Positions 16,190-64,000 of a DNA stretch of 64,000 nucleotides are shown here, piece by piece. Position 1 is the first letter of the stretch. Each line of letters starts with the position of its first letter. The stretch lies in NCBI GenBank assembly GCA_016647705.1, contig CM028328.1, positions 1,794,501-1,858,500 on the forward strand, given 5' to 3'. A program made the position numbers and the translations under genes. The DNA comes from Eucommia ulmoides. Its lineage: Eukaryota > Streptophyta > Magnoliopsida > Garryales > Eucommiaceae. The notes beneath the pieces were generated by a model, which was given only the letters and a program-made list of their open reading frames with translations, was not told the DNA's origin and searched no databases.

Positions 16190-17403
16190 ATCAAACTGGA
16201 GCATATATATTGTATGCTCCTAACTTATTACAAATGTATTTTATCCTTGAACCCCCAATGGTTTAGTAAATATATCAGTTAACTGATCAATTGAATTTAC
16301 ATGTTTAGTTTCAATCTGCTTTTGCAACAATTTTTCTCGAATGAAGTGACGATCAACTTCAATATGTTTTGTTCTCTCATGGAAGACTAGGCTGGAAGCA
16401 ATATGAAGTACTGCTTGATTATCATATACCAGATTTATTGGTGAAGAGTATCCAAACCCAAGTTCTTCCAACAAGTATTTCAACCAAGTTAACTCACAAG
16501 TGGTATGGGTCATTACCCTGTATTCTGATTCTGCACTTGATCGTGCCACCACAGTCTACTTTTTACTCTTCCAAGAGACAAGGTTACCACCAACGAACTC
16601 ACAATATCCAGTAGTAGACTTTGTATCCGAGGCCGATCCAACCCAATCTGCATCCATGTAGCCCTTTATTTGAGTATGACCAAAGTTTTGATATAAGAGA
16701 CCACAATCAGGAGCACCTTTCAAATATCGGAGAATACAGATCACTGCATCCCAGTGGCAAATCATTGGACGATCTAAGAACTGACTGATAACACTAACAA
16801 CAAATGAGATATCTGATCTGGTAACTGTCAGGTAGTTCAACTTTCCAACTAACCGTCTATATTGTGTTGAATCTGTCAGTGGTACACCTTGATCTGCTAA
16901 CAGTTCCGTGTTTGGATCCATAGGCGAGTCAATCGGTTTAGTTCCTAACATTCCTGTTTCGCTCAATAGGTCAAGGACATATTTTCTCTGAGACAGGTAA
17001 ATGTCTTGACGTGATCAAGCGACTTCAATTCCCAAGAAGTACTTTAAGTGACCCAAATCTTTCGTTTGAAACTTACTATTCAAAAACTGAATACCACCGT
17101 GGTCATCCCCGGTAATCATGATGTCATCCATATACACAATCAACAATATTCTCACGACTTTACTATGCTTGTAGAAGACGGAATGATCGACTCCACATCG
17201 TCGAAGACCAAACTCAGTGACCACTTCACTAAATCTTCCAAACCATACTCGAGGAGACTGCTTGAGGTCATAAATAGATTTCTTCAAGCGACACACCAAT
17301 CCAAACTCCCCCTGAGCAACAAACCCAGGAAGTTGCTCCATAAATACTTCCTCAGTTAAATCGCCATTTAAGAAAGTATTCTTAATATCGAGCTAATGTA
17401 ATG
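16190..17403 (-). mobile_element. Ty1/copia pol fossil (reverse transcriptase and RNase H part)
   Basis: A broken copia element on the minus strand. Recognisable parts in order are the reverse transcriptase (including the YMDD box in VYMDDIMITGDD and KYFLGIEV), the region before RNase H (KLNYLTVTRSDIS, YMDADWVGSASD) and RNase H (SSAESEYR, KHIEVDRHFIREK, DIFTKPL). Gag, protease, integrase and LTRs are absent here. There are a few breaks, so it looks moderately old. It is present in unit A but not unit B and so probably arrived after the duplication, or was lost from B. Confidence 0.93.
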
Positions 17404-17990: not shown

Positions 17991-18328
17991 AATATTAAAT
18001 TTGAAAATATAATCCCGGATTGTCAATCCCAAGTTTTATTTAAATTACACTTTCAACTCGAGATTGTCAATCCCAATTTTTATAAATAAAAAAAAATAAA
18101 AAAATTCATCCGTATATCCAAGATTGACAACCCCAGATTTAGAGAATGTTTTTGGAGGTATTATCGGGGCTTGTAACCTTGAGTCGGTTTTAATATTAAG
18201 GTTATAATATAATTATTTTGTAAAAAAAAAAAAAGTAATAAAAAAAATTATTTTTACCTAAACAACTAGAGAGAAGACGGTAGAGAGAGAAAATTGAAGA
18301 GAGGGAGAGAAGGGGGATTGGTTATCTA

Positions 18329-18889
18329 GGCCCCATTTGGTAACCATTTCTATTTCAGAAATTCTCATTCCATTCTCAAATTTTTGGGAATTCTATTTGG
18401 AAATAGCGTTTAGTAATTTTTGTTTCCGTTTCCATTTCATTCTCATTTGAGAATTGTGCCTACTTTTTTCTTAAGAAATGAGAAACAAAAAACAGTTGTT
18501 TCTCATTATTTCCATTCCATTCCCAAAACACATGGTCACTGTTCATCCACCGGGCGACCACCGTCCGCCACCGCTGGCGGTGGCCATCTCCGGCGACGTC
18601 CATTCCCAAAACACATGGTCACTGTTCATCCACCGGCGACCACCGGCCGCCGGCGGTGGCCATCTCCGGCAACCGTTGTCGGTCACCGTCCGGCCGGAAA
18701 TTTTTCGGCCACTGTCACCCACCCGTCATCGTTGTCCGGCCATCGCCGGCGACGTCGCCATTGCCTTCCGGTCGGCGTCGCCGTTGTCGGAGCCACCGCC
18801 GTCAGGCCAAAACAGAACAAAAAAATAAAAAAAAAGATTTTATAATAAAATCGTTATCAAACACAATTCCCTTCTCAAAACAAAATAAA
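18329..18889. mobile_element. Tourist-like element T1 (3' truncated)
   Basis: It starts GGCCCCATTTGGTAACC and follows the family layout: AT-rich arm with GAAATGAGAAAC, a GC-rich core full of CCGGCGACC words, then AAAATCGTTATCAAACACAATT. The last roughly 100 bp seen in T2-T4 are missing, replaced by the stem-loop insert. Its core contains an internal duplication (CAAAACACATGGTCACTG at about 18527 and 18607). Unit B lacks it. Confidence 0.8.
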
Positions 18890-19520
18890 TATCACTTGTC
18901 TGAGTTCATATACTAACCTGTAAATTGAGGAGTAAAAGTCTGAATAAAAGAAGTGTAAATATCAAAATGAAGAACAAATGAGAGAAAGAGCAAATGAAGA
19001 AGTGTGAATTTTAATGAACTCAGACAAGTGATATATATAGGCGAAATATCGTGCAAGTATCCCGTGGCTATTCAAAATTTCAAAATAAGGCTGAGTCTAA
19101 TAGCAAAAGAAGGCAGCCTAAAAGGCTGCCTTCTTTTGCAACTTTGGGCGGTCGTTTGACCGGCCAAAGCAAACGGCGACCAACCGATAACGGCTGGTCG
19201 CCGTTTAGTGTGATCCCGCCCTTTACAAGGGCGGGATCACATAAAAAAAATAAAAATAAATGATCCCGCCCTACACAAGGGCGGGATCATAATATTTTTT
19301 TTTTTTATACGATCCCGCCCGGCGGAATCACATGAAGATTAAAAAAAAAACACTTTTTTTATCCCGGCCTTCAGAAGGGCGGGATTAAAAATAAAAAATA
19401 AAAAAATATGGCGATCCTGCTGTTCGTAACAGCAAATACATCATTGCCGTAAATAAGTTAAAATCTGAATTATTTAAGTAATTTTTATTTTTTTTTAAAT
19501 ATTTATTGCGTAAACAAATC
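18890..19520. other. Stem-loop-rich insert upstream of glucanase copy A
   Basis: A perfect 20-bp inverted repeat (18890-18909 and 19014-19033) encloses about 104 bases. Next to its inner-right arm is a minus-strand TATA-like CTATATATAT (19031-19040). Eight stem-loops follow: 19103-19139 (16-bp perfect stem, 5-base loop), 19142-19169 (12 bp, one mismatch), 19171-19206 (16 bp, one mismatch), 19209-19241 (15 bp perfect), 19260-19290 (13 bp perfect), 19311-19329 (9 bp, one mismatch), 19361-19385 (11 bp, one mismatch) and 19418-19434 (7 bp). Several share the GATCCCGCCC/GGGCGGGATC stem. Absent from unit B. It could be an LTR-like or foldback element read on the minus strand. I do not recognise the family. 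Confidence 0.75.
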
Positions 19521-19618
19521 AAGCCTCAACTCCCTCCCCCACCACACCCACCACCCACCCACCCACCCGCCGCCATTTTTCCCAGTTGCCCCACCACTCT
19601 CTCTCCTCTTTCTCTCTC

Positions 19619-19626
19619 TATAAATA
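19619..19626 (+). promoter_or_regulatory. TATA box of glucanase copy A
   Basis: TATAAATA lies 68 bases before the ATG at 19694, within a CT-rich leader. The same box and spacing occur at copy B (29003-29010). Confidence 0.75.
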
Positions 19627-19693
19627 CTCATCTCCATCTCAAACTCCAACTTCAATTTTCCCTCTCTCTCGAGATATACTGTGTTCAGAAAAC

Positions 19694-20887
19694 ATGGGCA
19701 CCTCCAGTTATCCCCATTGTCTACTGCTCATCTCTCTCTTACTCTCCCTCTCATGGCTCCGTCTCTCTCTCTCCGATTCCGGTTCGGTCGGAATCAACTA
19801 CGGCCGTATCGCCGACAACCTCCCGGACCCAGCAAGGGTCGTTCAGCTCCTCAAATCCGTTAATCTTACCCGAGCGAAGCTCTACGATACCGATTCCTCC
19901 GTCCTCACCGCCTTCGCCGGCTCTGGTATTTCCTTCACCGTCGCGCTCCCCAACGGGCAACTCTCCGCAGCAGCCGCTAACCAGTCGTATACCGACTCGT
20001 GGGTACAATCCAACATCGTCGCTTACCAACCGCAGACTCTGATTGACGCCATCGCCGTCGGGAACGAGGTGTTCGTGGACCCGCAAAACACCATGGAATT
20101 CCTCGTACCCGCCATGACCAACATGTATGCGTCGCTGGTGAAGTACAACATCAATTCATCGATCAAGGTTTCGTCGCCGATAGCGCTGAGCGCTCTGCAG
20201 AGCTCGTATCCGTCGTCCGCCGGCGCGTTCAGACAGGAGTTGATCGAACCGGTGATCTTACCCATGCTGAATTTTCTCCGGCAGACGGGATCGTATCTCA
20301 TGGTTAACGCCTACCCATTTTTCGCTTACACCGCGAACACGGACACAATCTCTCTGGATTATGCTCTGTTCCGGCAAAACAATGGCGTCACCGACCCCAA
20401 CAACGGGCTCGTCTACAATAGCCTGTTCGACGCCCAACTCGACGCCGTTTTCGCCGCCATGAGAGCACTCCAATACGACGACGTAAAGGTCGTTGTCTCC
20501 GAGACGGGCTGGCCATCAAATGGAGACGAAAACGAACCCGGAGCAACCGAGGAAAACGCGGCGGCGTATAACGGCAACCTCGCCCGCCGAGTCCTCACCG
20601 GCGGCGGAACTCCCCTGAGACCCAACGACACTCTCAACGTCTACCTATTCGCCCTCTTCAACGAGAATCAAAAAACCGGCCCCACGTCGGAGAAAAACTA
20701 CGGCCTTTTTTACCCGAACGAAGAGAGAGTCTACGACATACCCTTGACCAGCGCCGCCATCGCGACGGGGACTAACGGAACCACTCGGGTGGTGACGCCG
20801 GATATGGCACTTGCAACTTCCCTACAGGATTTTGAGGGCCAAATTATTTTTATTTTATTTTTATTTTATTTTTGTTTTTTGGGATAA
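19694..20887 (+). CDS. GH17 glucan endo-1,3-beta-glucosidase lacking X8 domain (copy A)
   Basis: GH17 enzymes hydrolyse beta-1,3-glucan (callose) in the cell wall. The 397-aa protein has a signal peptide (hydrophobic about 9-26), SVGINYGR, the acid/base glutamate in VGNEVF (E125) and the nucleophile in VSETGWPS (E270). It is nearly identical to copy B through residue 369 (VVTP). There an internal deletion, relative to copy B, removes the X8 domain, the intron and its splice sites, and joins the last-exon sequence out of frame. This adds a new tail of about 28 residues, DMALATSLQDFEG followed by a hydrophobic stretch rich in Phe, Leu and Ile. I chose the ATG at 19694, which matches copy B; the frame is open upstream to 19586, but that lies before the TATA box. 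The gene may be a functional catalytic-only enzyme or a decaying duplicate. Confidence 0.88.
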   Translation: MGTSSYPHCLLLISLLLSLSWLRLSLSDSGSVGINYGRIADNLPDPARVVQLLKSVNLTRAKLYDTDSSVLTAFAGSGISFTVALPNGQLSAAAANQSYTDSWVQSNIVAYQPQTLIDAIAVGNEVFVDPQNTMEFLVPAMTNMYASLVKYNINSSIKVSSPIALSALQSSYPSSAGAFRQELIEPVILPMLNFLRQTGSYLMVNAYPFFAYTANTDTISLDYALFRQNNGVTDPNNGLVYNSLFDAQLDAVFAAMRALQYDDVKVVVSETGWPSNGDENEPGATEENAAAYNGNLARRVLTGGGTPLRPNDTLNVYLFALFNENQKTGPTSEKNYGLFYPNEERVYDIPLTSAAIATGTNGTTRVVTPDMALATSLQDFEGQIIFILFLFYFCFLG

Positions 20888-21415: not shown

Positions 21416-21652
21416 TAGGGGTGTAAGTGAAAATCGTGTACCCGACCTGACCCGCCCGATTCAACCTCTTGTCGGGCGGTTAGAGACTGCCCAAAAAAAT
21501 TCATAATCAAACCCATCCCGCCCGCAAGGAACACCGGCTAGGATCAGATACCCTTGATAGTTGATACCATACCCGCGTTCTCCGAACCCGACCGAAATAA
21601 AAACATAATTCTTCTATTCCCGACCCGCCCGCCCGCCCGTTTTACACCCCTA
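21416..21652. mobile_element. hAT MITE with 8-bp target duplication (unit A)
   Basis: The ends are TAGGGGTGTAA and TTACACCCCTA, flanked by identical ATAAAGAT copies (21408-21415 and 21653-21660). The interior is rich in GACCCGCCC words. The same insertion with the same flanks is in unit B (32094-32319), so it predates the duplication. Confidence 0.92.
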
Positions 21653-22079: not shown

Positions 22080-22520
22080 AACGAACTCAAAACCACAATC
22101 AATAAATTATCAAGCAATCGAACCCTAAATCCCAATAAAAAAATTATCAAACAATCGAACCCTAAACCACAATAAAAAAAATCACTAAGCAATCGAAATC
22201 GAAATTAAAATTCTAAACCCCAGTCAAAATCCAATTAAAATCGAAATCGAGAATAAAAAATGGAAACCCTAATTGAGATCGACGAAATCGAAATATCCTA
22301 TATCGAAGTCGATTTCGATTTAGGGACGAACAAGGAAATCAGCGAAATCAAAATACCCTAAATCGAAATCGATTTCGAAATCGACGAAATCGAAATCGAT
22401 TTCGATTTAGGGTTGAACAAGGAAATCAACGAAATGGATTTCGATGAATCGAAATCGATTTCGATTTCCACGAAATTGAAATGGAAATCGATTTCGATTT
22501 AGGATATTGATTTCAACAGA
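22080..22520. repeat. AAATCGA/TCGATTT-rich repeat region (unit A)
   Basis: It has many AATCGAAATCGATTTCGATT-like words in both orientations, with interspersed CCCTAAA/TTTAGGG words. Counterpart at 33780-34300 in unit B. Non-coding. Confidence 0.8.
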
Positions 22521-28079: not shown

Positions 28080-28850
28080 TTGTTTTCAGAGAGGAAATAA
28101 TGGTAGAGAGAGAGAGAGTGTAGGAGAGAGAATAGGAAGGATGGTATAGAGAGAGAAGACGAGAGAGAGAAAGAATAGGTGGTAGAGGGAGACTAGGAGA
28201 GAGAGAGAGAAGCTGGTAGAGAGAGACTAGGAGATAGAAGATGAGAGAGAAGACAGTAGAGAGAGAAAACCCGGGTATTAAAACCTGGGATTTCGAACTC
28301 CGAACCCCGATTATACGTAAAAAAATATTCTCTAAACTCGAGATTGTCAAAGAGCGGTAAATTGTCTTTTATCTCTTCTATTTTGTCTAATTATCAATTT
28401 ATATTTCTCAATAAAAAATTATTATAGTTAACTTATTTTTTACAATCGTCCTCAATATCAAAAGGGGTCTTAAATTTTTCATCTTCCCGATTAAGTACAT
28501 TATTATTTAATATTAAATTTGAAAATATAATCCCAGACTATCAATCCCAAATTTTATTTAAATTACACTTTCAACCCGGAATTGTCAAAATAAAACAAAA
28601 AATTTGTCCGCATATCCCGGGTGGACAATCCCGGATTTAGATAATGTTTTTGGACGTATGATCGGGCCTTGTAACGTCGAGTCGGTTTTAATATTAAGGT
28701 TATCAATCTCGAATTATAATTGTTTTGTAAAAAAAAAAAAAAAAAAAAAGTAATAAAAGAAATTATTTTTACCTAAACAGCTAGAGAGAGAAGACGGTAG
28801 AGAGAGAAAATGGTAGAGAGAGAGTGGGGATTGGTTATCTACTAGCTCTT
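28080..28850. repeat. GAGA-rich and CCCGGATTGTCAATCCC-type repeats upstream of copy B
   Basis: GA microsatellite tracts (28090-28270 and 28785-28825) flank sequence with repeated GATTGTCAA/CCCGGATT words. The second part matches 17991-18328 of unit A. No gene. Confidence 0.6.
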
Positions 28851-29002
28851 AGAGAAAGAAAATTGTGCCACCCCCCTGGTAGTACTTTTGTCCACTCTTC
28901 CTCTACGCCTCAACTCCCTCCACCCCCCCTCCCCCACCACACCCACCCACCCACCACCATTTTTCCCACCTGCCCCACCACTCTCTCTCCTCTTTCTCTC
29001 TC

Positions 29003-29077: not shown

Positions 29078-31269
29078 ATGGGCACTTCCGGTTATCCCCA
29101 TTGTCTACTGCTCATCTCTCTCTTACTCTCTCTCTCATGGCTCCGTCTCTCTCTCTCCGATTCCGGTTCGGTCGGAATCAACTACGGCCGTATCGCCGAC
29201 AACCTCCCGGACCCATCAAGGGTCGTTCAGCTCCTCAAATCCGTTAATCTTACCCGGGCCAAGCTCTACGATACCGATTCCTCCGTCCTCACCGCCTTCG
29301 CCGGCTCTGGTATTTCCTTCACCGTCGCGCTCCCCAACGAGCAACTCTCCGCCGCCGCCGCTAACCAGTCGTATACCGACTCGTGGGTACAATCCAACAT
29401 CGTCGCTTACCAGCCGCAGACACTGATTGACGCCATCGCCGTCGGGAACGAGGTGTTCGTGGACCCGCACAACACCACGGAATTCCTCGTACCCGCCATG
29501 ACCAACATGTATGCGTCGCTGGTGAAGTACAACATCAATTCTTCGATCAAGGTTTCGTCGCCGATAGCGCTGAGCGCGCTGCAGAGCTCGTATCCGTCGT
29601 CCGCCGGCGCGTTCAAACAGGAGTTGATCGAACCGGTGATCAAACCCATGCTGAATTTTCTCCGGCAAACGGGATCGTATCTCATGGTTAACGCCTATCC
29701 ATTTTTCGCTTACACAGCGAACACCGACACAATCTCTCTGGATTATGCTCTGTTCCGGCGAAACAATGGCGTCACCGACCCCAACAACGGGCTCGTCTAC
29801 AATAGCCTGTTCGACGCCCAACTCGACGCCGTTTTCGCCGCCATGAGAGCACTCCAATACGACGACGTAAAGGTCGTCGTCTCCGAGACGGGCTGGCCAT
29901 CACATGGAGACGAAAACGAAGCCGGAGCAACCGAGGAAAACGCGGCGGCGTATAACGGCAACCTCGTCCGCCGAGTCCTCAACGGCGGCGGAACTCCCCT
30001 AAGACCGAACGACACTCTCAACGTCTACCTATTCGCCCTCTTCAACGAGAATCAAAAAACCGGCCCCACGTCGGAGAAAAACTACGGCCTTTTTTACCCG
30101 AACGAAGAGAGAGTCTACGACATACCCTTGACCAGCAACGCCAACTCGACGGTGGCCAACGGAACCACCACACGGGTGGTGACGCCGGGAACCGGAGACA
30201 GCGGAAATGTGTCGACCAGCCTGGCGGGGCAAACGTGGTGCGTGGCGAACGGGAATGCCGGAGAGGAGAAGCTGAAGGCGGCGATCAACTACGCTTGCGG
30301 GGAAGGAGGAGCTGATTGCCGTCCGATCCAAGAGGGTGCCACGTGTTACAATCCTAACAGCTTGGAGGCACACGCATCGTACGCGTTCAATAGTTACTAT
30401 CAGAAGAATCAGCGCGTGAGTGGGACCTGCTATTTCGGCGGTGCGGCCCACGTGGTCACGCAACCTCCTAGTGAGTACCTTATCATTTCTCTTTCTAATT
30501 TTTCAATATTAATTTTTGACTTTTAAATTAATTAAATTTAGACATTGAAATGAACAATCTACTAAATTTAAATTTATTTTTTTTATACAGTAATTTTTTT
30601 TAAATAAAAAATTATTATAATACATATAACAATTTTGTTGATGCATACTGATTTTTGAATTTTTTACAGTAATTTTAAACGTCTAAAAAAATTTAAAAAA
30701 TTATAGTAACCTCAAAATTGTTAAATTTATTATTATTAATTAAACCATATCACTATTCAATCAATGAAAACTCTTATTAATTAATTATATTTTAATTTCA
30801 AATACAATATAGGCTTTTGAAAATGTAGAATTGGTTTTCAATTTTGAAATTTGTTTTTTTTTATTTTTTATTTTGTGTAATTGTATTTTTTTCCCCCAAT
30901 AAAACTTTATATTTTGGGTAAAGACGCGCATAACCTACCGCACAACGTTCCGACTTCATTAAACTAAAAGCAACCCTTTTTTTAATAAAATGAAACGTAA
31001 TTTTTTTTTCAGTTTCTTGTAAAATTTAGAGATAAAAATTTATTTTCAACGATTTTTAGGCTTATTCGGCTAAATTAAAAAAAAAAAATTATCATAAGCA
31101 AAACCCGGTAAAGTGTAATTTTTTAATGTAGAAAGACAATTGACCCTAATATTTTTATATCCTTTTTAAAAAAAATTAAAATATGGTGCTTAATATATTA
31201 TTTACTAATTTTTATTTTTTTTTTAATTTTTCAGGGTATGGCACTTGCAATTTCCCTACAGGATATTGA
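29078..31269 (+). CDS. GH17 glucan endo-1,3-beta-glucosidase with X8/CBM43 domain (copy B)
   Basis: A secreted beta-1,3-glucanase of the cell wall. Exon 1 is 29078-30470 and exon 2 is 31235-31269. The donor is GTGAGT at 30471 and the acceptor TTTTTCAG ends at 31234. An Arg codon spans the junction, giving 475 aa. The parts are: signal peptide (about 1-27); GH17 domain with SVGINYGR, acid/base E125 (VGNEVF) and nucleophile E270 (VSETGWPS); linker; and X8 domain from about 386 (TWCVANGN) with six cysteines (388, 407, 414, 423, 451, 469), ending QPPRYGTCNFPTGY. No hydrophobic GPI tail follows the X8 domain. It closely resembles the class I remember for Arabidopsis At5g55180/At4g26830, including the tiny last exon product. 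No gene symbol is assigned. Confidence 0.95.
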
Positions 31270-33779: not shown

Positions 33780-34300
33780 TTATTTTGGTCCTAGAAATCA
33801 AGAACAAACTCAAAACCACAATTAATAAATCGTCAAGCAATTGAATCCTAAACCCTAATAAAAAAATTATAAAGCAATCGAATCCTAGACCATAATTAAA
33901 AAATTACCAAGCAATCGAACCTTAAACCCAAATCGAAATCAAAATTCTAAACCACAGTTGAAACCTCAATCGAAATCGAGACTCCAATTAGAATCAAAAT
34001 GGAAACCCTAATTGAGATTGACGAAATCGAAATACCCTAAATCGAAATCAGTTTTGACGAAATCGGCCAAGTCGATTTCGATTTAGGGTCAAACAAGGAA
34101 ATCGGCGAAATCAAAATACCCTAAATCGAAATCGAAAAAATCGAAATACCCTAAATTGCAATCGATTTTGGCAAAATTGAAATCCATGGAATCAAAATCG
34201 ATTTCGATTTAGGGTTGAACTAGGAAAGCGACGAAATTGATTTCGATTTAGGGTCGAACAAGGAAATCGACGACAAACACCACAAACAAGGAAATCGACG
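33780..34300. repeat. AAATCGA/TCGATTT-rich repeat region (unit B)
   Basis: Counterpart of 22080-22520. Upstream is GGGCCCGTTTGGTAACTG (about 33636), the start of a Tourist-like terminus that is deleted in unit A. This suggests the repeat region is the interior of a MITE-like element. The right terminus is not clear. Confidence 0.7.
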
Positions 34301-34859: not shown

Positions 34860-35830
34860 AAATCCCTTATTTATCCTTAATTTAAAAAAAAAAATTCCTA
34901 TCCAATTACAACTCCTATTTTACTCTCATACGAAGAAAAAAAAAAAAAAAAAAAGAAGAAAGAAAGAAAGAAAAAGACGGAACACCCAATACACACACTG
35001 TACTCTTGCAGTTATACATATATAGTTTGTGTGTGAAATATTGTTACATGTAATTTTTAACTTGTAACTAGTATTACATTGGTACATGTAACTAATATTA
35101 CACAGACGTGAGTATATACGGGATTATTACATAATTTAAGAGACTAAGGCCATGTTTGGTAACTGTTTTCATTCCAGAAATTCTCATCCCATTCCTAAAT
35201 TTTTGGGAATAGCGTTTGGTAATTTTTGTTTCCGTTTCCATTTAATTCCCATTTGAGAATTGTGCCCACTTTTTTCTTAAGAAATGAGAAACAAAAAAAA
35301 GTTATTTTTCATTATTCTCATTCCATTTCCAAAACACACGGTCATTGTTCATCCACCGTCTAACCGCCGTCCACCTCCGCCTGTCGCTGCCGGCCATCTC
35401 CGGCGACCGTCGTCGGTCACCGTCCGGCTACTGTTACCCATCAGCCACAGCCGTCCAGCCGGCGCCGGCGCCGGTGTCATTGTCGTTCGGCCGATGCCGG
35501 AGTACCGTCGTCCTGCCTGCGCCGGCGACGGCGCCACTGCGGTCCGGCCAAAACAGAAAAAAAAAACCAAAAAATAAAAAATTTTAGGATAAAATCGTTA
35601 CCAAACACAATTCTCTTCCTAAAACAAAAAAAAAAATTATTGTTACCAAACGCGATTCTACTCCCAAGAAGAAAACAAAATTCCCATCCCATCTCCATCC
35701 CACTGCTGGAATGAAAACAAAAACGGTTATCAAACGCCACCTAAGTGAAAGCTTATATTTTAAATAAAACTAATAGTAAATTATACCCGCTACTTAAGAC
35801 TAATTACCAATTATCCCTTTAATTTATTTA
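34860..35830. repeat. R1 repeat family, copy c, split by a MITE
   Basis: The left part, 34860-35147, has CAATACACACACTG and GTTACATGTAA words. The right part, 35742-35830, has AACTAATAGTAAATTATACC and CTAATTACCAATTATCCC. Together they match copies at 6793 and 27130. Element T2 interrupts them. Confidence 0.7.
35148..35741. mobile_element. Tourist-like element T2 with TAA target duplication
   Basis: The ends are GGCCATGTTTGGTAACTG and CGGTTATCAAACGCCACC, flanked by TAA (35145-35147 and 35742-35744). It has conserved AT-rich arms and a GC-rich core (about 35345-35550). PIF/Harbinger-type by termini and 3-bp duplication. It is inserted in R1 copy c. Confidence 0.88.
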
Positions 35831-38471: not shown

Positions 38472-39060
38472 GTGGCCCCGTTTGGCAACTCTTTCCATTC
38501 CAGAAATTCCCATCTCATTCCCAGATTTTTGGGATTTCTGTTTAGAAATAGTGTTTGATAATTTTTGTTCCCGTTCCTATTTCATTCTCATTTGAGAATT
38601 GTGCCCATTTTTTTTTTAAGAAATGAGAAATAAAAAAAAAATTGTTTCTCATTATTCTTATCCCATTCCCAAAAATCACCACCACTGTTTATCCGCTGTC
38701 CGTTGGCGCTCGCCGCCGCCGACAGTGGCCATTGTCGACCGATCGCCAGTCGCTGCCGGCAGCCATCTCCGACAATTGTCACCGGTCACCTCTGACATCG
38801 CTGGCTGCCCACCGCCAGGCAACTTCCGGCGCCGCCAGCAGCCATCGTTGCCGCCACCGTTCAACAAAAAAAAAAAAAAAATCTCAAAATAATTTTTTTA
38901 TTTTAGGATAAAATCGTTACCAAACGCGATTTTGTTCCCAAAAATAAATAAATTATCGTTACCAAATACGATTATACTTTCAAGAAGGAAACAAAATTTT
39001 CATCTCATCCTATTATCATCCCACTGGTGGGATGAGTATAGGAATAGTTACCAAACTCCA
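38472..39060. mobile_element. Tourist-like element T3 with TTA target duplication
   Basis: The ends are GTGGCCCCGTTTGGCAAC and TAGTTACCAAACTCCA, with TTA on both sides (38469-38471 and 39061-39063). Its GC-rich core at about 38690-38865 differs in order from T2 and T4. Confidence 0.83.
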
Positions 39061-41785: not shown

Positions 41786-43480
41786 TCATATTAGTGTTTG
41801 GTTTGTACAACGTTGAAGGTTTGAAATTCGAACTACAAATGAGAAATGGGTTTATTTCTAAATCGAATTTGAGGCTCGGATTTTGGGCTTCCAAACACTA
41901 CCTTAGGGTTCATGTTTTTTAGGTCTTAGATAATGTTTGGTTGTTCATAATTGCAGGTTTGTATTCATTTCTAAATGGAATTTCGAGGCTCGAATTTTAT
42001 GCTTCCAAACCCTTTATTAGGGTTCATGTTTTTTCGGTGTTAGGTAGTGTTTGGTTGTACAGAATTGGAAGTTTGAAATTTGAATTAGAAATGAGAAATT
42101 GGTTTATTTCTAAATCGAATTTTGAGGCTCGAATTTTATGCTTCCAAACACTACCTTTGGTTCATGGTTTTTGGGTCTTAGATAATGGTTGGTTGTTCAA
42201 AATTGCAGGTTTGTGTTCATTTCTAAATGGAATTTCAAGGCTCGAATTTTGTGCTTCCAAACCCTATCTTAGGGTTCATTTTTCTTGGTGTTAGGTAGTG
42301 TTTGGAAGGTTTGAAATTCGAACTAGAAATGAGAAATTAGTTTATTTCTAAATCGAATTTTGAGGCTTGAATTTTGTGCTTTCAAACACTAGCTTAGGGT
42401 TCATGTATTTTGGGTCTTAGGTAGTGTTTGGTTGTACAAAATTAGATTTTTGAAATTCGAATTAGAAATGAATAATGGGTTGATTTCTAAATCGAATTTC
42501 GAGTGTTGAATTTTGATCTTCCAAATTCTATCTTAGGGTTCATGTTTTTTCAGTGTTAGGTGTTTGGTTGTACATTATTGGAGATTCGAAATTCAAACTA
42601 GAAATGAGAAATTGGTTTATTTCTAAATTCGAATGTTGAGGCTTGAATTTTCTGATTTCAAACACTAGATTAGGGTTCATGTTTTTTGGGTCTTAGGTAG
42701 TGTTTGGTTGTACAGAATTAGAGTTTTGAAATTCGAATTAGAAATGAATAATGGGTTAATTTTTAAATTGAATTTCGAGGCTCGTATTTTGTGCTTCCAA
42801 ACCCTAGCTTAGGGTTCATGTTTTTTCGGTGTTAGGTGTTTGGTTGTATATAATTGGAGGTTCGAAATTCAAATTAGAAATGAGAAATGGGTTTATTTCT
42901 AAATTGAATATTGAGGCTCGAATTTTGTGTTTCCAAACCCTACCTTGGGATTCATGTTTTTTCAGTGTTAGGTAGTGTTTGGTTGTACAAAATTGGAGGT
43001 TTGAGATTCGAATTAGAAATGGGAAATGGGTTTATTTCTACATCATTTCTAATTCGAATTTGGAGGCTCAAATTTTGTGGTTCCAAACACTACCTTATGC
43101 TTCATGGGTTTTTTGGGTCTTGGGTTGTGTTTGGTTGTAGAAATTAGGCGTTTGAAATTTGATTTACAAATGAGAAATGAATTTATTTCTAAATTGAATT
43201 TCAGAGAATTTTGTCCTCTCAAACGCTATCCTAGCACTCATGTTTATCTTTTTAAGGTAGTTTTTGGTTGTACAATGTTGGGGGTTTGAAATTCGAGTTG
43301 AAAATAAAAAATGGGTTTTATTTCTATTTCGAATTTCGAGGCTCCAATGAGTTTAAGGATACATGTTTTTTTTTTTCAGCCTTTTGGTTGTATAGAATTG
43401 AAACTTTGAAATTTGAATTAGAAATGTGTTATCTAAATCCAATTTAAGGCTTGAATTTTGTGCTTCCAAACACTACCTTA
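41786..43480. repeat. Tandem array of about 13 MITE-like units
   Basis: A unit of about 110-145 bp recurs in direct orientation: GTAGTGTTTGGTTGTACA, AAATTCGAATTAGAAATGAG, TTTATTTCTAAATCGAATTT, GAGGCTCGAATTTTGTGCTT, CCAAACACTACCTTAGG. Starts of GTTTGGTTGT-type words are near 41793, 41934, 42049, 42188, 42300, 42427, 42565, 42707, 42839, 42977, 43128, 43265 and 43384. Each unit is roughly palindromic, with TAGTGTTTGG and CCAAACACTA ends like the single MITE at 62237-62372. The array starts about 260 bases after the ERF stop codon. Confidence 0.88.
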
Positions 43481-44104
43481 GGCCCCGTTTGGTAAACATT
43501 TTCATTCCAGAAATTCCCATTCTATTTCTAGATTTTTGGGAATAGCATTTCGTAATTTTTGTTTCCGTTTCCGTTTCCATTTCATTCCCATTTGAGAATT
43601 GCGTCCACTTTTTTCTTAAGAAATGAGAAACAAAAAAAAGTTATTTCTCATTATTCCCATTCCATTCCCAAAACATATGGTCACTATTCACCTACCGGCC
43701 GGCCACCGGCCGCCGGTCATCTCCGGCGACCGTCGCCGGTCAACGTCCGGCCGGAAATTTTCCGGCCACTTCTGGCCGTTGCAGGCGACGGCGCCATTGT
43801 CTTCCGCCCGGTGTCGCCGGTGCCACCGCCATCCGGTCATCGCTGGCGGGGGGCCACCTTCGTCTCCGACGCCGGAGCACCGCCGGCCGGCCGGCGACGG
43901 TGCCACCGCCGTCAGGCCAAAACAGAAGAAAAAAATAAAAATAAAAATTAGGATAAAATCGTTACCAAACACAATTCCCTTCCCAAAACAAAAAAAAAAT
44001 TATCGTTACCAAACGCGATTCTACTCCCAAAAAGAAAACAAAATTCCCATCCCATTCCCATCCCACTACTAGAATGGAAACAGAAACGGTTACCAAACGC
44101 CACC
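43481..44104. mobile_element. Tourist-like element T4 with TTA target duplication
   Basis: The ends are GGCCCCGTTTGGTAAAC and CGGTTACCAAACGCCACC, with TTA at 43478-43480 and 44105-44107. The GC-rich core is at about 43695-43920. It is inserted at the right end of the MITE array and is the most complete copy of the T1-T4 group. Confidence 0.9.
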
Positions 44105-52066: not shown

Positions 52067-55000
52067 ATGGAGCTCTGTGGTTCCACATCATCTCCGACGT
52101 TCCTCCAATTCAAGCTCTCTCTCTCCTCTTCTCTCTCTACCCCTAACCCTAACCCGCTTCTTCATCCCACCACCAATAGAAGAATCAACATCAAATCCTT
52201 TACTCCCATTAACATACTGTGTAATAATTCCCGCCAATTCTCTCTCCTCCAACCTCCGTCTTCGAGAATTTTACCTATCGCTGCTGCGGCTTCCTCGGCC
52301 TCCGTTGAGACGGTACATGACCGACTTCCGGCTGATATCGATGTCTCCGTAACGGAAGAACCGAATTCTAGAGTGAGTTCTTCTAATTCTGTATTTGTTA
52401 ATTGCAATTGCTCAATTTTGACTGATCGTAGCTAATCCATCATGATTTTGGTTTCGAAATGAAGATCGTTTGCATTTTCCTTGCCAATTTTGTATTTGTT
52501 AATTATAGTTGCTCAATTTTACTGTCTATATTCTGATCGAGCTCATATGACCTAATTTTCCTGATTTTTGATTTTGTCAATGAGGAATGATTGCATTTTC
52601 CCTGTCATTTTCATGAATTTCTGATTGTGTAATTTTGAAAATGCCGTTTTCTTTGCATCATCTCGCAGTTTAATCTTTTAATTTGTGTTTTTCCCCAATT
52701 CAAACTGTTTGTTCATCGCCGCATGGCGTTTAAACTCTGAATTTTAAGTGCTAAATTTATTAAGTGGTGAATCTATTAAGTATTCAAATTTTTAATACTT
52801 TTAATTTTACAAAAATTATCTTTGTACAAATTTTTGTTCCTAAAATAATTTTTATAACCTTTTTTTTTTTTTAAATATTATTTCTCTTCAAATTTCTCTC
52901 TCTAATTTTATTCAATTTAATATTTTCTTTATCTATAATTTTTTGTATATAACTTTTTTCCTTTTTGTGAGAATTTATTGTTGGGAATTTCGGACTAATT
53001 TTCAAATTCTCCCTCAGGATCCATTGAGCAGAATATCAAGAATAACTGAGAAATTAGAAAATACAACACAAGAATTATAGTGGAAACTCCAAAACCGGAG
53101 AAAAACCACTATTGTTGTCAAAGACAATTCAAGAAAAATTCACTATGTGGAAAATTGTTACAACCACACTCTTAGTAATTTTTCCTCACACTCAAAACCC
53201 ATAGAATACAAAATCTTCAAGAACACACTCCTTACAAATTATACCCATGACCCATATTGGAGAGCCAAATGCTCCCCAATATTTATATGCTTAAGAGCAT
53301 TCTTCCCTTGGGATTTCTCTCTATTTTTGGATACCTCAAACTCTCTGCATATTTTCTTTTGCAGAGAACTTATTTTGCTTTTTGGCTCATCTCCTCTATT
53401 TATAGAAAAGATTTGAGCCCTTTCATCTAATCTGAACAGACCAAGAGAATCTTCAACAATTGTCGGTGAATTTGGTGTAGCCTCACTCTTTTTCTTCTTT
53501 GGTGAGTTACATGTTCCTTCCTCCTTTTTCTTTTGTTTTCTTGGGCTGATTCATTGAATCACTCAATTGATCTTTTGGCCTTTTGTTGATTTTTCTTAAT
53601 ATTAGAAAAGTAATTTTCCCATCCCAAATTGGAAGTGAATATTACCCAACAAATCTCCCCCTCATGACCAATTTGGGGTTAAAGTTAAAACTATAATTTC
53701 CTTGCAAACTCCGTCATCATAACATTGTTTTCATCAACAGTTATAATTCTCGGTACAGAGAATTATCATACTCCACCATAAAGAGTATACACACTTAGAA
53801 TAAATCATTCTAAGAATTTCACCTCGGCTCATGTCGAACAATCCTGCTGAAAAATTATGGTGCAACTCCCATGTTGGCTCTCTTGGAAGTTCATCAGCAA
53901 TCGACATCATTTTACCACACACCTTGCATTAATGCCAACCAATGCTCGTGTGCAAAGAACCCGCTAGTAGTGACACATTCTCTTTTATGACAATTTTAAT
54001 AACTAACGGCATGCTATGAGGATGTACATGCTCTTTTCAAAGAGCATCACCATAGTCTTCGAAAACAGACACACTGTTAGCTTCACCGGCGATATTTGAC
54101 CTTGAGCTGCTTGCCGAATCAGCTCCACTTTTTGGGCAATTTCTTTTGAGGTACCCAGATTGTCCACACCTCCAACAAACCAATTTCTTGTTCATGGAGT
54201 TCTTCTTCCAATTTCCGGTTACCACCAAAGCCGAGTTTTTAGGTGGAGCACTATATCTACCACCTAGCCTTTTCTCTTCGGAGAAAAGTTTGTTGGTGAC
54301 TTCTGAGAACACAACCTTATCTTTCCCATGAATCAAAATGGGCTTCATGTGTTCATAAGAATGTGGAAAAGACCAGATGAGCCTCAACACTTTATCCTCA
54401 TTATCAATCTTCACTCCAATGGCTTCCAGTTTAGAGACGATACCATTTAAGACACTCAGATGGTCAGAAATGGCTGTGCCTTCATTCATATGCAAAGTAT
54501 GAAACTGCTCATTGAGATACACCCGATTAGAGACGCCTTTTGCTTGATATATTTCTTCGAGCTTCTCCCAAAGTTTCTTGGCAGTTTTAATTCCTTGCAC
54601 ATTAGCAAGAACATTTTTTTCCATAGACAAGCGGATCACACTTTCGGCTCTCAAATCGAAGTCTTCCCATTCCTCATCGCTCATACCGGATTTCAAACCT
54701 TCTTTGCTAGTATCCGGGGACGGTCGCCCCTTCAACGCTTTGTGTAACCCAGATTGAATCATCAAATCCCTTGTACTTGCCACAAGCCAAAGTTGATTCT
54801 CCCATTGAATTTCTCTACATCGAATTTTACGCTCAACATGCTCAACATTTTCTTTCAATAACCAAGCTCTGAAACCAATTGTTGAGAATTTCGGACTAAT
54901 TTTCAAATTCCCTCCCAAGATCCATTGAGCAGAATACCAAGAATAACTGAGAAATTAGAAAATACAATATAAAAATTTGTTGGGTAATATTCACTCCTAA

Positions 55001-58000
55001 TTTGGGATGAAAAAATTACTTTTCTAATATCAAGAAAAATCAATAAAAGGCCAAAAGATCAATTGCGTGATTCAATGAATCAACCCAAGAAAACAAAAGA
55101 AAAAGGAGGACAGGGACATGTAGTTCACCAAAGAAGAAAAAGAGTGAGGCTACACCAAATTCACCTACAATTGTTGAAGATTCTCTTGATTTGTTCAGAT
55201 TGGATGAAATGGCTCAAATCTCTTCTATAAATAGAGGAGATGAGCTAAAGAGAAAAATCAAGTTCTCTGCAAAGAAAATACGTAGAGGGTTTGAGAGATC
55301 CCAAAATAGAGAGTGTGTATCAATTCAAGTTAGAGGATTTGTGTGGGAAATTCTCTAGGGTGTAATTATCTTTGTTTTGGGGGGTGAGAAAATTCCTGAG
55401 AGTGTGAGGGTTTGTAATAATATTCTTCACATAGTGAATTTTCTCGGGTTTTCTTTGATAACGACAGTGGTTTTTCTTCGGTTTTGGAGTTTCCACTTAA
55501 ATTCTTGTGTTGTGTGATTGTGTTGATTATTCTCCAATTTTTTTATTTTTCTATATCGTGCGACTCTTATTCAATTGATTCTCCCATTGAATTTCTTTAC
55601 ATCGAATTTTACGCTCGACATGCTCGACATTTTCTTTCAATAGCCAAGCTCTGATACCAATTGTTGGGAATCCCATTGGATTTCTCTACATCGAATTTTA
55701 CGCTCGACATGCTCGACATTTTCTTTCAATAGCCAAGCTTTGATACCAATTGTTGGGAATAAGAGTTGCACAATATAAAAAAATAAGAAAATTGGTGAAT
55801 AATCAACACAAGAATTTTTCCTCACACCCAAAACCCATAGAATACAAAATCTTCAAGAACACACTCCTTACAAATTATACCCATGACCCATATTGGAGAG
55901 CCAAATGCTCCCCAATATTTACATGCTTAAGAGCATTCTTCCCTTGGGATTTCTCTCTATTTTTGGATACCTCAAACTCTCTGCATATTTTCTTTTGCAG
56001 AGAACTTATTTTGCTTTTTGGCTCATCTCCTCTATTTATAGAAAAGATTTGAGCCCTTTCATCTAATCTGAACAGACCAAGAGAATCTTCAACAATTGTA
56101 GGTGAATTTGGTGTAGCCTTACTCTTTTTCTTCTTTGGTGAGCTACATGTCCCTTTCCTCCTTTTTCATTTGTTTTCTTGGGCTGATTCATTGAATCACT
56201 CAATTGATCTTTTGGCCTTTTGTTGACTTTTCTTGATATTAGAAAAGTAATTTTCCCATCCCAAATTGGGAGTGAATATTACCCAACATTTACAGTATTG
56301 TTGTAAAATACTGGTTGTAATAATTCGATATTTTATGATATTAAGTAATGAGTGCTAAAAAATAAAGTAAATCATGCATCACTTGAAATTTTTAATAATT
56401 TTTTAAGGGATACTTATTTTTTAAAGTAATTGTTTAATTATGTTATCAAACGTACATAATTTAATAAGTATTTAATTCATTTAGTTTTAAATGTTTAATT
56501 AGGTTAGCAAACGGGGCCTCAATTTACAAGAACTTGATTCCTATACATACTTGAAGTTTCTTGTTTAAGATGTTTTGATATATGATGAATTTCAATTGAA
56601 ATTTCCATTGATGCTAACAGCTTTGCATGGTTTACATGTGTTCTATCTACAGGTTAGGTTGAGTGTAGAAGTTCCACCAGAAGTATGTGATGATTGTTAT
56701 GGGAGGGCCATCAATGAGTTCATGAAGCAAGCAAAGGTACTGTTTGGTAATGCTCTTTTTAAGTACTTTTTAAAATAATTAAAAAAAATAAATTAAAAAA
56801 AGTTTTTTTTGACGAAAGAACGAAAGTTAAAATTGAAAAGGGCGTCTGATAGTGTAGTGCTATCTGAATGTTATCCCTATAAATGATGTCGATGATTGAA
56901 AAAAGTTAGTGGAAAGGTTCTAGTTCGTTGATCTCCGACAATATAAACATCGAAGAATGGGAAAACAACAATTTTTGTTTTTCGAAAAAAAGTACTCAAA
57001 ATATGTTTTTTTTAACTTTTTTGAGTCAAATCATATGGTACTTTAAAATTAAGTATTTTTTTTTTGCTGAACAATATTTGTAAAAGCAAAAAAGTACCTC
57101 AAGAGAGTAAAAATCAATTGTAGAAAAAAGAACCTTAGCTTAAAATAAAAAAATAAAAATAAAAGCCGTGTTTTATTAAGGATTATATCTTAGTGTTATC
57201 CCTATAAGTGATCTCTTAATTCAAAAAATAAAATAAAAGATAATTGGAAAAATATCGGGTAGAGAGCTCTTGGTCCATTGATCTCCATCAATCTCGCATG
57301 ATATAAAAATCAGAAAAATAAAAAGTAACTATATTTTGTTTTTCGAAAAAAATACTTAAAACAATATTTTTATTTTTTTAATACTTTTGTTTTAAAAGTA
57401 CTTTTCTTAGGTGCAAAAAAAAAGACTACTTTTAAAAATTAAGTACTTTGATAAACCCTAGGCTGATTGGTAAAAAAAATGGACAAGATGAGAATGGATG
57501 TTTTTATTGAAATGAAAAAAAAAAAAACCGACACCCAGGTATTCGAGAGACCGGGTTCTCTCCCAAAGCCGAAGCTCAATACAAATGATTATTTGATATG
57601 CCTACACACTCCCTTCTCTCCCTTTTATAATCTGACTATTACCATATAGGGTTCCTCTCAACAAGATAACTATTAACTAAGGAATCATGGCTAGTTGACC
57701 TTCCTAATATCTTCCCATCGCCTTCCTGAAATATTCTGTGAATTAATTTAGTAACGGTCACTTCCTTTCCTGCGACGCGCATAGGTGAACCTGATTGGTG
57801 GTCTGTCATACTTTTTGCTTAAAAGTACTTTTATAAAATGCTTTAAAAAAAAGGTTTACCAATTGATGCTTTAGTTTTTGTGAACTTATTGTGGACTTAT
57901 TTTCAATTATATGTAGGTCCCTGGATTTCGTCCCGGAAAGAAAGTCCCAGAGAGCATTCTTATCGGTCATGTTGGGAAGCAAAGTGTTCGAAAGGCAACA

Positions 58001-63333: not shown

Positions 63334-64000
63334 TCTCCGAAAACCCTAAACCCTGAACACGAAACCCTAAATTGCTCCAAGAGAGAGAATGGTGGAATCG
63401 CCGGGATTGTGATTTGAGAGAGAGAGGAGAGAGAAAGAAACCATTTTTCTCTTAATTTGTTTTTGATCTGAAATTGTAATTGAAATGAAATTGATTTTTT
63501 GACATTTTTTGTAACTGAATTTTCTCTTAATATTGTTTTCAAAGAGGATAAAGCCGTCATTTAATGTGATTTTAATTAAGTTGACAAATTTGAAAATTTA
63601 AATTCCATATAATTATATACCAAAATGTTAAGGGTTTTGACACTTTGTACCCCCTAAGTTTAACCAAAATGTCACTTTGGTTGCCATAGTTTCAATTTGA
63701 ACATAGAGATTTTGGCACTTTAGACCCCTAAAGTTTTGGAGAAATTTCACTTTAGCCCCTATATTTTTAATTAAACATATTAAACCCTGAAGTATTCAAA
63801 TCATGTCAAGTCAATCTAAATTGGTAAGCCTATTATATTATATTTAATAATGAAAATCAGTCACGTGTGAGGCACAAAGATTCACGAGGGTGAATTATGT
63901 CACAAAAAAGATAGAATGACTGACTTGACATGATTTGAATAATTTAGGGTTTAATGTGTTCAAATTAAAAGACAAGGGTTAAAGTGAGATTTTTTTAAAA
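63334..64000. other. 3' flank of TIG and a partial MITE at the window edge
   Basis: TIG 3' untranslated sequence is expected in the first few hundred bases. From 63630, AAGGGTTTTGACACTTTGTA matches the terminus of the element at 35875-36354 and continues out of the window. No gene seen. Confidence 0.55.

Follow-up and report, generated by a model that had tools for sequence, protein, structure and literature searches.

A segment of approximately 634 bp (18889-19522), lying in a stretch of 64,000 nucleotides that reads as plant DNA and is here called the window, was found to combine a dense array of stem-loops with a promoter-like order of motifs on the minus strand, and to replace DNA directly upstream of a glucanase-like gene. 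The original prediction of such a segment was confirmed. We read it as a fragment broken from a class II transposon, the CACTA/EnSpm type being the most likely, and this fragment would comprise the subterminal stem-loop array, the promoter and a first exon with the start of an intron, all on the minus strand; the chances of this reading being right appear to us about evenly balanced. If it is right, this is a clear case of a transposon control region grafted into a plant gene promoter, probably during repair, and the graft may bring methylation or silencing to the glucanase copy. The general interest is modest, as neither the mechanism nor the probable class of element is new.

Genomic setting and replacement at the site

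Alignment within the window revealed two diverged duplicate units, A at approximately 12.3-22.4 kb and B at approximately 23.3-34.2 kb, each of which contains a GH17 glucanase gene (Pfam). The gene copy in unit A (19694..20887, plus strand; aligned to unit B, with the GH17 domain found by Pfam on the frame 19514-20887) gave no Pfam match to the X8 domain, which is present beside GH17 in copy B, and no part of A aligned with approximately 1,045 bp of unit B (30189-31233), the break in A falling at 20801. The missing 1 kb or so and the missing X8 domain are consistent with a deletion in A. Copy A has its own TATA-like box at approximately 19619 and an ATG at 19694, both outside the segment; it is a decaying glucanase copy, part of the upstream promoter of which was replaced by the segment.

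On the other side the segment adjoins T1 (18327..18889, plus strand; ends GGCCCCGTTTGGTAAC / GTTACCAAACGCCACC), a MITE defined by alignments and truncated at its right end, which we take to be Tourist-like and of the PIF/Harbinger type. Relatives of T1 were aligned at approximately 35148-35742, 38474-39060 and 43479-44104, with TTA/TAA-type target duplications at two of the three (those at 35 and 43 kb) and no clear one at 38 kb. A long tandem array at 41792-43482, with units of approximately 114-139 bp (CTTCCAAACACTACCTTAGG...), runs right up to the T1 relative at 43479.

It had been claimed that the segment is missing from the sister unit and that it cuts T1, and both claims hold. Positions 18000-18328 of unit A align with 28518-28841 of unit B and the alignment resumes at 19523 with B at 28907, so that B passes from one block to the next without the segment, and T1 stops at approximately 18889. 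Unit B is the state without the insert, and T1 was inserted where the first aligned block ends. Gone from unit A are the last 105 bp or so of T1, which are kept in the copies at 35, 38 and 43 kb, together with approximately 65 bp of B-type promoter. A clean insertion would leave both flanks and a short duplication; here the T1 end and host promoter sequence are missing, and the segment therefore replaces DNA, through either a single repair event or an insertion that was followed by a later deletion. The longest word common to both edges is AAACAAA (18878 and 19512). However, seven or more bases in common were found in 462 of 4,974 pairs of random 35-base stretches, and at a chance rate of approximately 9% this word is no evidence of a target duplication. 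Four three-base words are also common to the AT-rich edges; with the flanks deleted, such words are too many to carry meaning.

The stem-loop array

The original prediction placed eight stem-loops in the segment, of which six proved strong (19101-19385) and two weak, the run ending at 19434. All are given without a strand; the sixth was recognised by direct reading and the others were located by script. The first (19101..19141) has 18 pairs, 17 of them in an unbroken stem, and a loop of 3, and is followed by a second (19142..19169) of 11 pairs with one mismatch and a loop of 4. The third (19171..19206) is built on a AAACGGCGACCAACCG stem of 15 pairs with one mismatch and a loop of 4, the fourth (19209..19241) on a TGTGATCCCGCCCTT stem of 15 pairs with a loop of 3, and the fifth (19260..19290) on a ATGATCCCGCCCT stem of 13 pairs with a loop of 5. 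The weak sixth (19311..19329), a damaged copy of the fifth stem, consists of a GATCCCGCC/GGCGGAATC palindrome that has one mismatch and a one-base centre. The seventh (19361..19385) pairs ATCCCGGCCTT with AAGGGCGGGAT over 10 pairs, with one mismatch and a loop of 3, and the weak eighth (19418..19434) has a 7-bp stem. Beyond it, the AT-rich outer end of the insert (19435..19522, no strand) contains no recognisable terminus.

At least three of the hairpins were expected to share a stem motif; four of the stems are in fact copies of one unit built on GATCCCGCCC. This motif occurs in five exact copies and one with a single mismatch at 19212-19386, and a further copy, again with one mismatch, lies at 21514. 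The units start at 19213, 19263, 19312 and 19361 (the motif of the damaged sixth hairpin lying at 19311), which gives a period of approximately 50 bp, and the spacers between them are A-rich and T-rich, resulting in nested larger palindromes. The stems of hairpins 1, 2, 3 and 8 are unlike the GATCCCGCCC family. When up to two mismatches were allowed, seven of the 12 sites for ATCCCGCCCTT in the window fell at 19213-19385, on both strands. The ratio of observed to expected CpG was 1.28 in the hairpin block vs 1.02 in the window; CpG is thus undepleted in the block and gives no hint of an old methylated repeat. Dense inverted repeats built on ACCCTAAATCGAAATCGATTTCGA were seen in each duplicate unit (22302-22503 and 34034-34254), with perfect arms of up to 24 bp and a tandem-repeat character.

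That the density of stems is far above chance is borne out by stem counts, shuffles and folding. Under a strict rule (at least 10 pairs, at most one mismatch, a loop of 3-12 and an arm GC of at least 0.4), six of the 12 stems in the 64-kb window lie at 19101-19385; relaxing the same rule to at least 8 pairs placed six of 47 window stems in the array. For stems of at least 8 pairs with loops of 3-8, the segment holds six of the 38 in the window, whereas 200 dinucleotide-shuffled versions of 18885-19525 averaged 0.115 and none exceeded 1. Across 99 tiles of 641 bp the mean was 0.37 stems and the top tile, with four, was the left tile of the segment itself (18590), its right tile (19231) having two and the best tile elsewhere three (39743). 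Folded as a single strand, 19095-19440 reached -117.9 kcal/mol vs -40.8 for shuffles (z -17.8), none of 100 shuffles being as good.

Promoter-like order and the inverted repeat

Read along the minus strand, the array gives way to a TATA-like box, then a pyrimidine-rich leader and then a donor-like CAG/GTTAGT. The box, which had been predicted on this strand, is TATATATAT at 19039-19031 (direct reading). The putative leader (18912..19009, minus strand, direct reading) consists mostly of T and C, its pyrimidine-rich composition having been taken over 18917-19030, and ends in CAG/GTTAGT at 18920-18912, which we take to resemble the plant splice donor. Read against such consensus sequences, the stretch would supply a promoter, a transcription start and a splice site.

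The perfect inverted repeat, first described as 20 bp long with a loop of approximately 104 bases, is in fact 21 bp, again perfect, with a loop of 104. Its arms, found by script and given on the plus strand, lie at the T1 junction (18889..18909) and at 19014..19034, where the arm overlaps the TATA-like box, such that the repeat spans 18889-19034 and brackets the leader; some 23 bases beyond the donor-like site the segment thus ends, at T1, in an inverted copy of the sequence adjacent to the TATA-like box. Perfect inverted repeats of at least 16 bp within 1 kb also occur elsewhere in the window, and many of these fall within tandem or simple repeats. A second perfect 21-bp inverted repeat, of similar size and different sequence, was noted at 63793-63941 (loop 107).

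A hairpin in the leader of an RNA was considered as a role for the repeat. When 152 bases were folded as RNA, the structure was closed by the 21-bp stem (z -5.5, none of 200 shuffles folding as well). This result favours structure, yet the folded input takes in the TATA-like box and would not correspond to the expected transcript, and the fold was therefore set aside. Since one arm overlaps the box, upstream of the expected start, such a hairpin is unlikely. For the same reason the two arms would not normally pair in a transcript, and the repeat is probably the scar of a snap-back (template-switch) repair, which would be its simplest origin.

Probable derivation from a CACTA/EnSpm element

The CACTA reading is based on architecture and on published descriptions. 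In En/Spm elements the promoter adjoins the subterminal array; here array, TATA-like box, leader and donor-like site share a single orientation, in favour of this reading. CACTA subterminal repeats are 10-20 bp long and occur in direct and inverted orientation, as given in extracts from two papers (PMC8978399, PMC8195511). For the soybean element Tgmt*, the extract from PMC2613891 gives 12 stem-loops in the right border and two in the left, motifs with one GC-rich and one AT-rich part, and one motif in all 14 main stem-loops; an extract from PMC4219821 describes stem-loop-forming subterminal repeats in TgmR*. These last two sources are one group's account of soybean elements and so are not independent. 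Compared with the soybean elements Tgmt*, Tgm1 and TgmR* (En/Spm) as those extracts present them, the segment is alike in its many subterminal stem-loops, its repeated unit and the use of both orientations, and its GC-rich stems with AT-rich spacers agree with published descriptions of CACTA subterminal regions, including the GC-rich and AT-rich parts of the soybean motifs. It differs in stem sequence (GATCCCGCCC here vs the TTGGCAG motif of Tgmt*) and in carrying several unrelated stems in one array, where Tgmt* has one motif. Unlike the soybean elements, the segment is also without a CACTA terminus, a recognised 3-bp duplication and a transposase.

The sole copy of CACTA/TAGTG in the insert lies at 19206, between hairpins 3 and 4, and none was found in 18700-19100 or 19380-19700. 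At up to one mismatch, CACTACAANAAA matched the window once (44433), against a chance expectation of 2.68, and not near the segment. A second copy of the segment was looked for in the window at E 1e-4, and none was present. No gene for a Tnp2-type transposase or TnpA-like protein was detected in the seven frames given to Pfam (of 26 of at least 120 aa). As CACTA termini and transposase are missing, we regard the segment as one that works like a CACTA element and probably derives from one, and not as a proven member. The fragment is truncated, and the missing ends thus lower the case for its being a CACTA element and not the case for its coming from one.

The recurring GC-rich palindromes would, in the complete element, have lain beside the promoter as binding sites for the element's own TnpA-like protein. 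The fragment may have come to its present site as filler in a double-strand break; alternatively, it may be the remnant of an inserted element that was cut back by deletions, which also took the T1 end and the 65 bp or so of host DNA. Snap-back during repair would probably have produced the 21-bp inverted repeat where the segment meets T1.

Alternative origins

The array evidence applies equally to the terminal fragment of some other or undescribed class II element with a hairpin-array subterminal region (hAT, Mutator, Helitron or a new non-autonomous family), a reading that is possible, if rather unlikely, and is favoured by the several unrelated stem sequences and by the fact that no CACTA end was seen. 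It is possible that such an element entered T1 with a 7-bp AAACAAA duplication, after which a deletion would have taken the right end of T1 and host DNA. This course of events would fit the presence of AAACAAA close to each edge and an AT-rich inverted match of 9 bases that links the two edge regions. However, seven-base edge matches arise in either orientation in approximately 9% of random pairs (462 and 474 of 4,974), the 9-base match was obtained in a shifted frame that had no control of its own, and direct reading found no recognisable family terminus at either edge.

Filler DNA at plant double-strand breaks combines a flanking deletion and an unrelated insert with a short inverted repeat at the junction, and the site resembles it in these respects; a source for the insert was not found. 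An ordinary host gene could have been that source, its promoter and first exon being captured in this way along with a local array of hairpins; this would explain the replacement junctions as well as the succession of TATA-like box, pyrimidine-rich leader and CAG/GTTAGT. A palindrome array with a repeated unit would nevertheless be unusual in a host promoter, and we consider such a capture doubtful. More doubtful still is an undescribed plant mobile element, in which a promoter preceded by head-to-tail near-perfect palindromes of several unrelated sequences would form a multi-protein or cruciform-based control region: the segment is real, and yet it is probably not a new kind of element.

The original prediction also spoke of a mobile insert. 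A mobile-element origin is indeed likely, but the form proposed for it, a solo-LTR-like or foldback element inserted at this site, was not supported, no LTR signature having been found. As in plant solo LTRs, a promoter-like TATA box is followed by a leader, and the order of array, box and leader resembles U3-R-U5 with the hairpins as U3; an inverted repeat, as would suit a foldback element, is also present. Unlike solo LTRs, the segment is not a unit bounded by TG..CA with a convincing target duplication: by eye, the edge words AAACAAA and CTCAA do not lie at the junctions with TG..CA inside, the edge duplication is no better than chance, and the flanks are missing and not intact. The tRNA-Met primer binding site TGGTATCAGAGC, at up to two mismatches, was found only at 12.7, 54.9, 55.6, 55.7 and 59.6 kb and neither in nor near the segment, and the purine-rich flank beside the segment on the minus strand is host promoter, also present in unit B. 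As for a foldback element, the 21-bp arms bound only 18889-19034 and not the whole segment, between the edges of which the only inverted matches are short (7-9 bases) and AT-rich. A literature search requiring all terms together found nothing on an LTR with a hairpin U3. Both forms are accordingly very improbable.

Least probable of all is a fragment from the intergenic region of an endogenous plant pararetrovirus or other DNA virus, which would account for a promoter and palindromes in one integrated piece, but two exact patterns were without a match in IMG/VR (a weak test, as exact matching was required) and, among the matches listed, no paper describes such an array in its title or the start of its abstract.

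A bacterial plasmid origin was rejected, 18880-19530 being without a match to 72,556 plasmid records (blastn in distant mode, E up to 0.01). No known RNA family matched at gathering level in the window, and all 35 sub-threshold rows for the segment fell below the gathering scores and were judged to be chance hairpin look-alikes; a search for a tRNA origin found none. A match of a short piece of the segment to PMC4256440 is, in the extract concerned, to a T7-promoter probe junction and was put down to chance. A scan for bacterial promoters and terminators is uninformative for plant DNA.

Copia-type fragments occur in the window at 17015-17392 (RVT_2) and 54037-54954 (gag), both on the minus strand (Pfam). 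Around the gag gene lie two repeats that are 97.7% identical (53177-53651 and 55813-56288), with inverted copies at 54978-55313, and three consensus sites for the tRNA-Met primer binding site, each with at most one mismatch, lie close by at 54866-55748.
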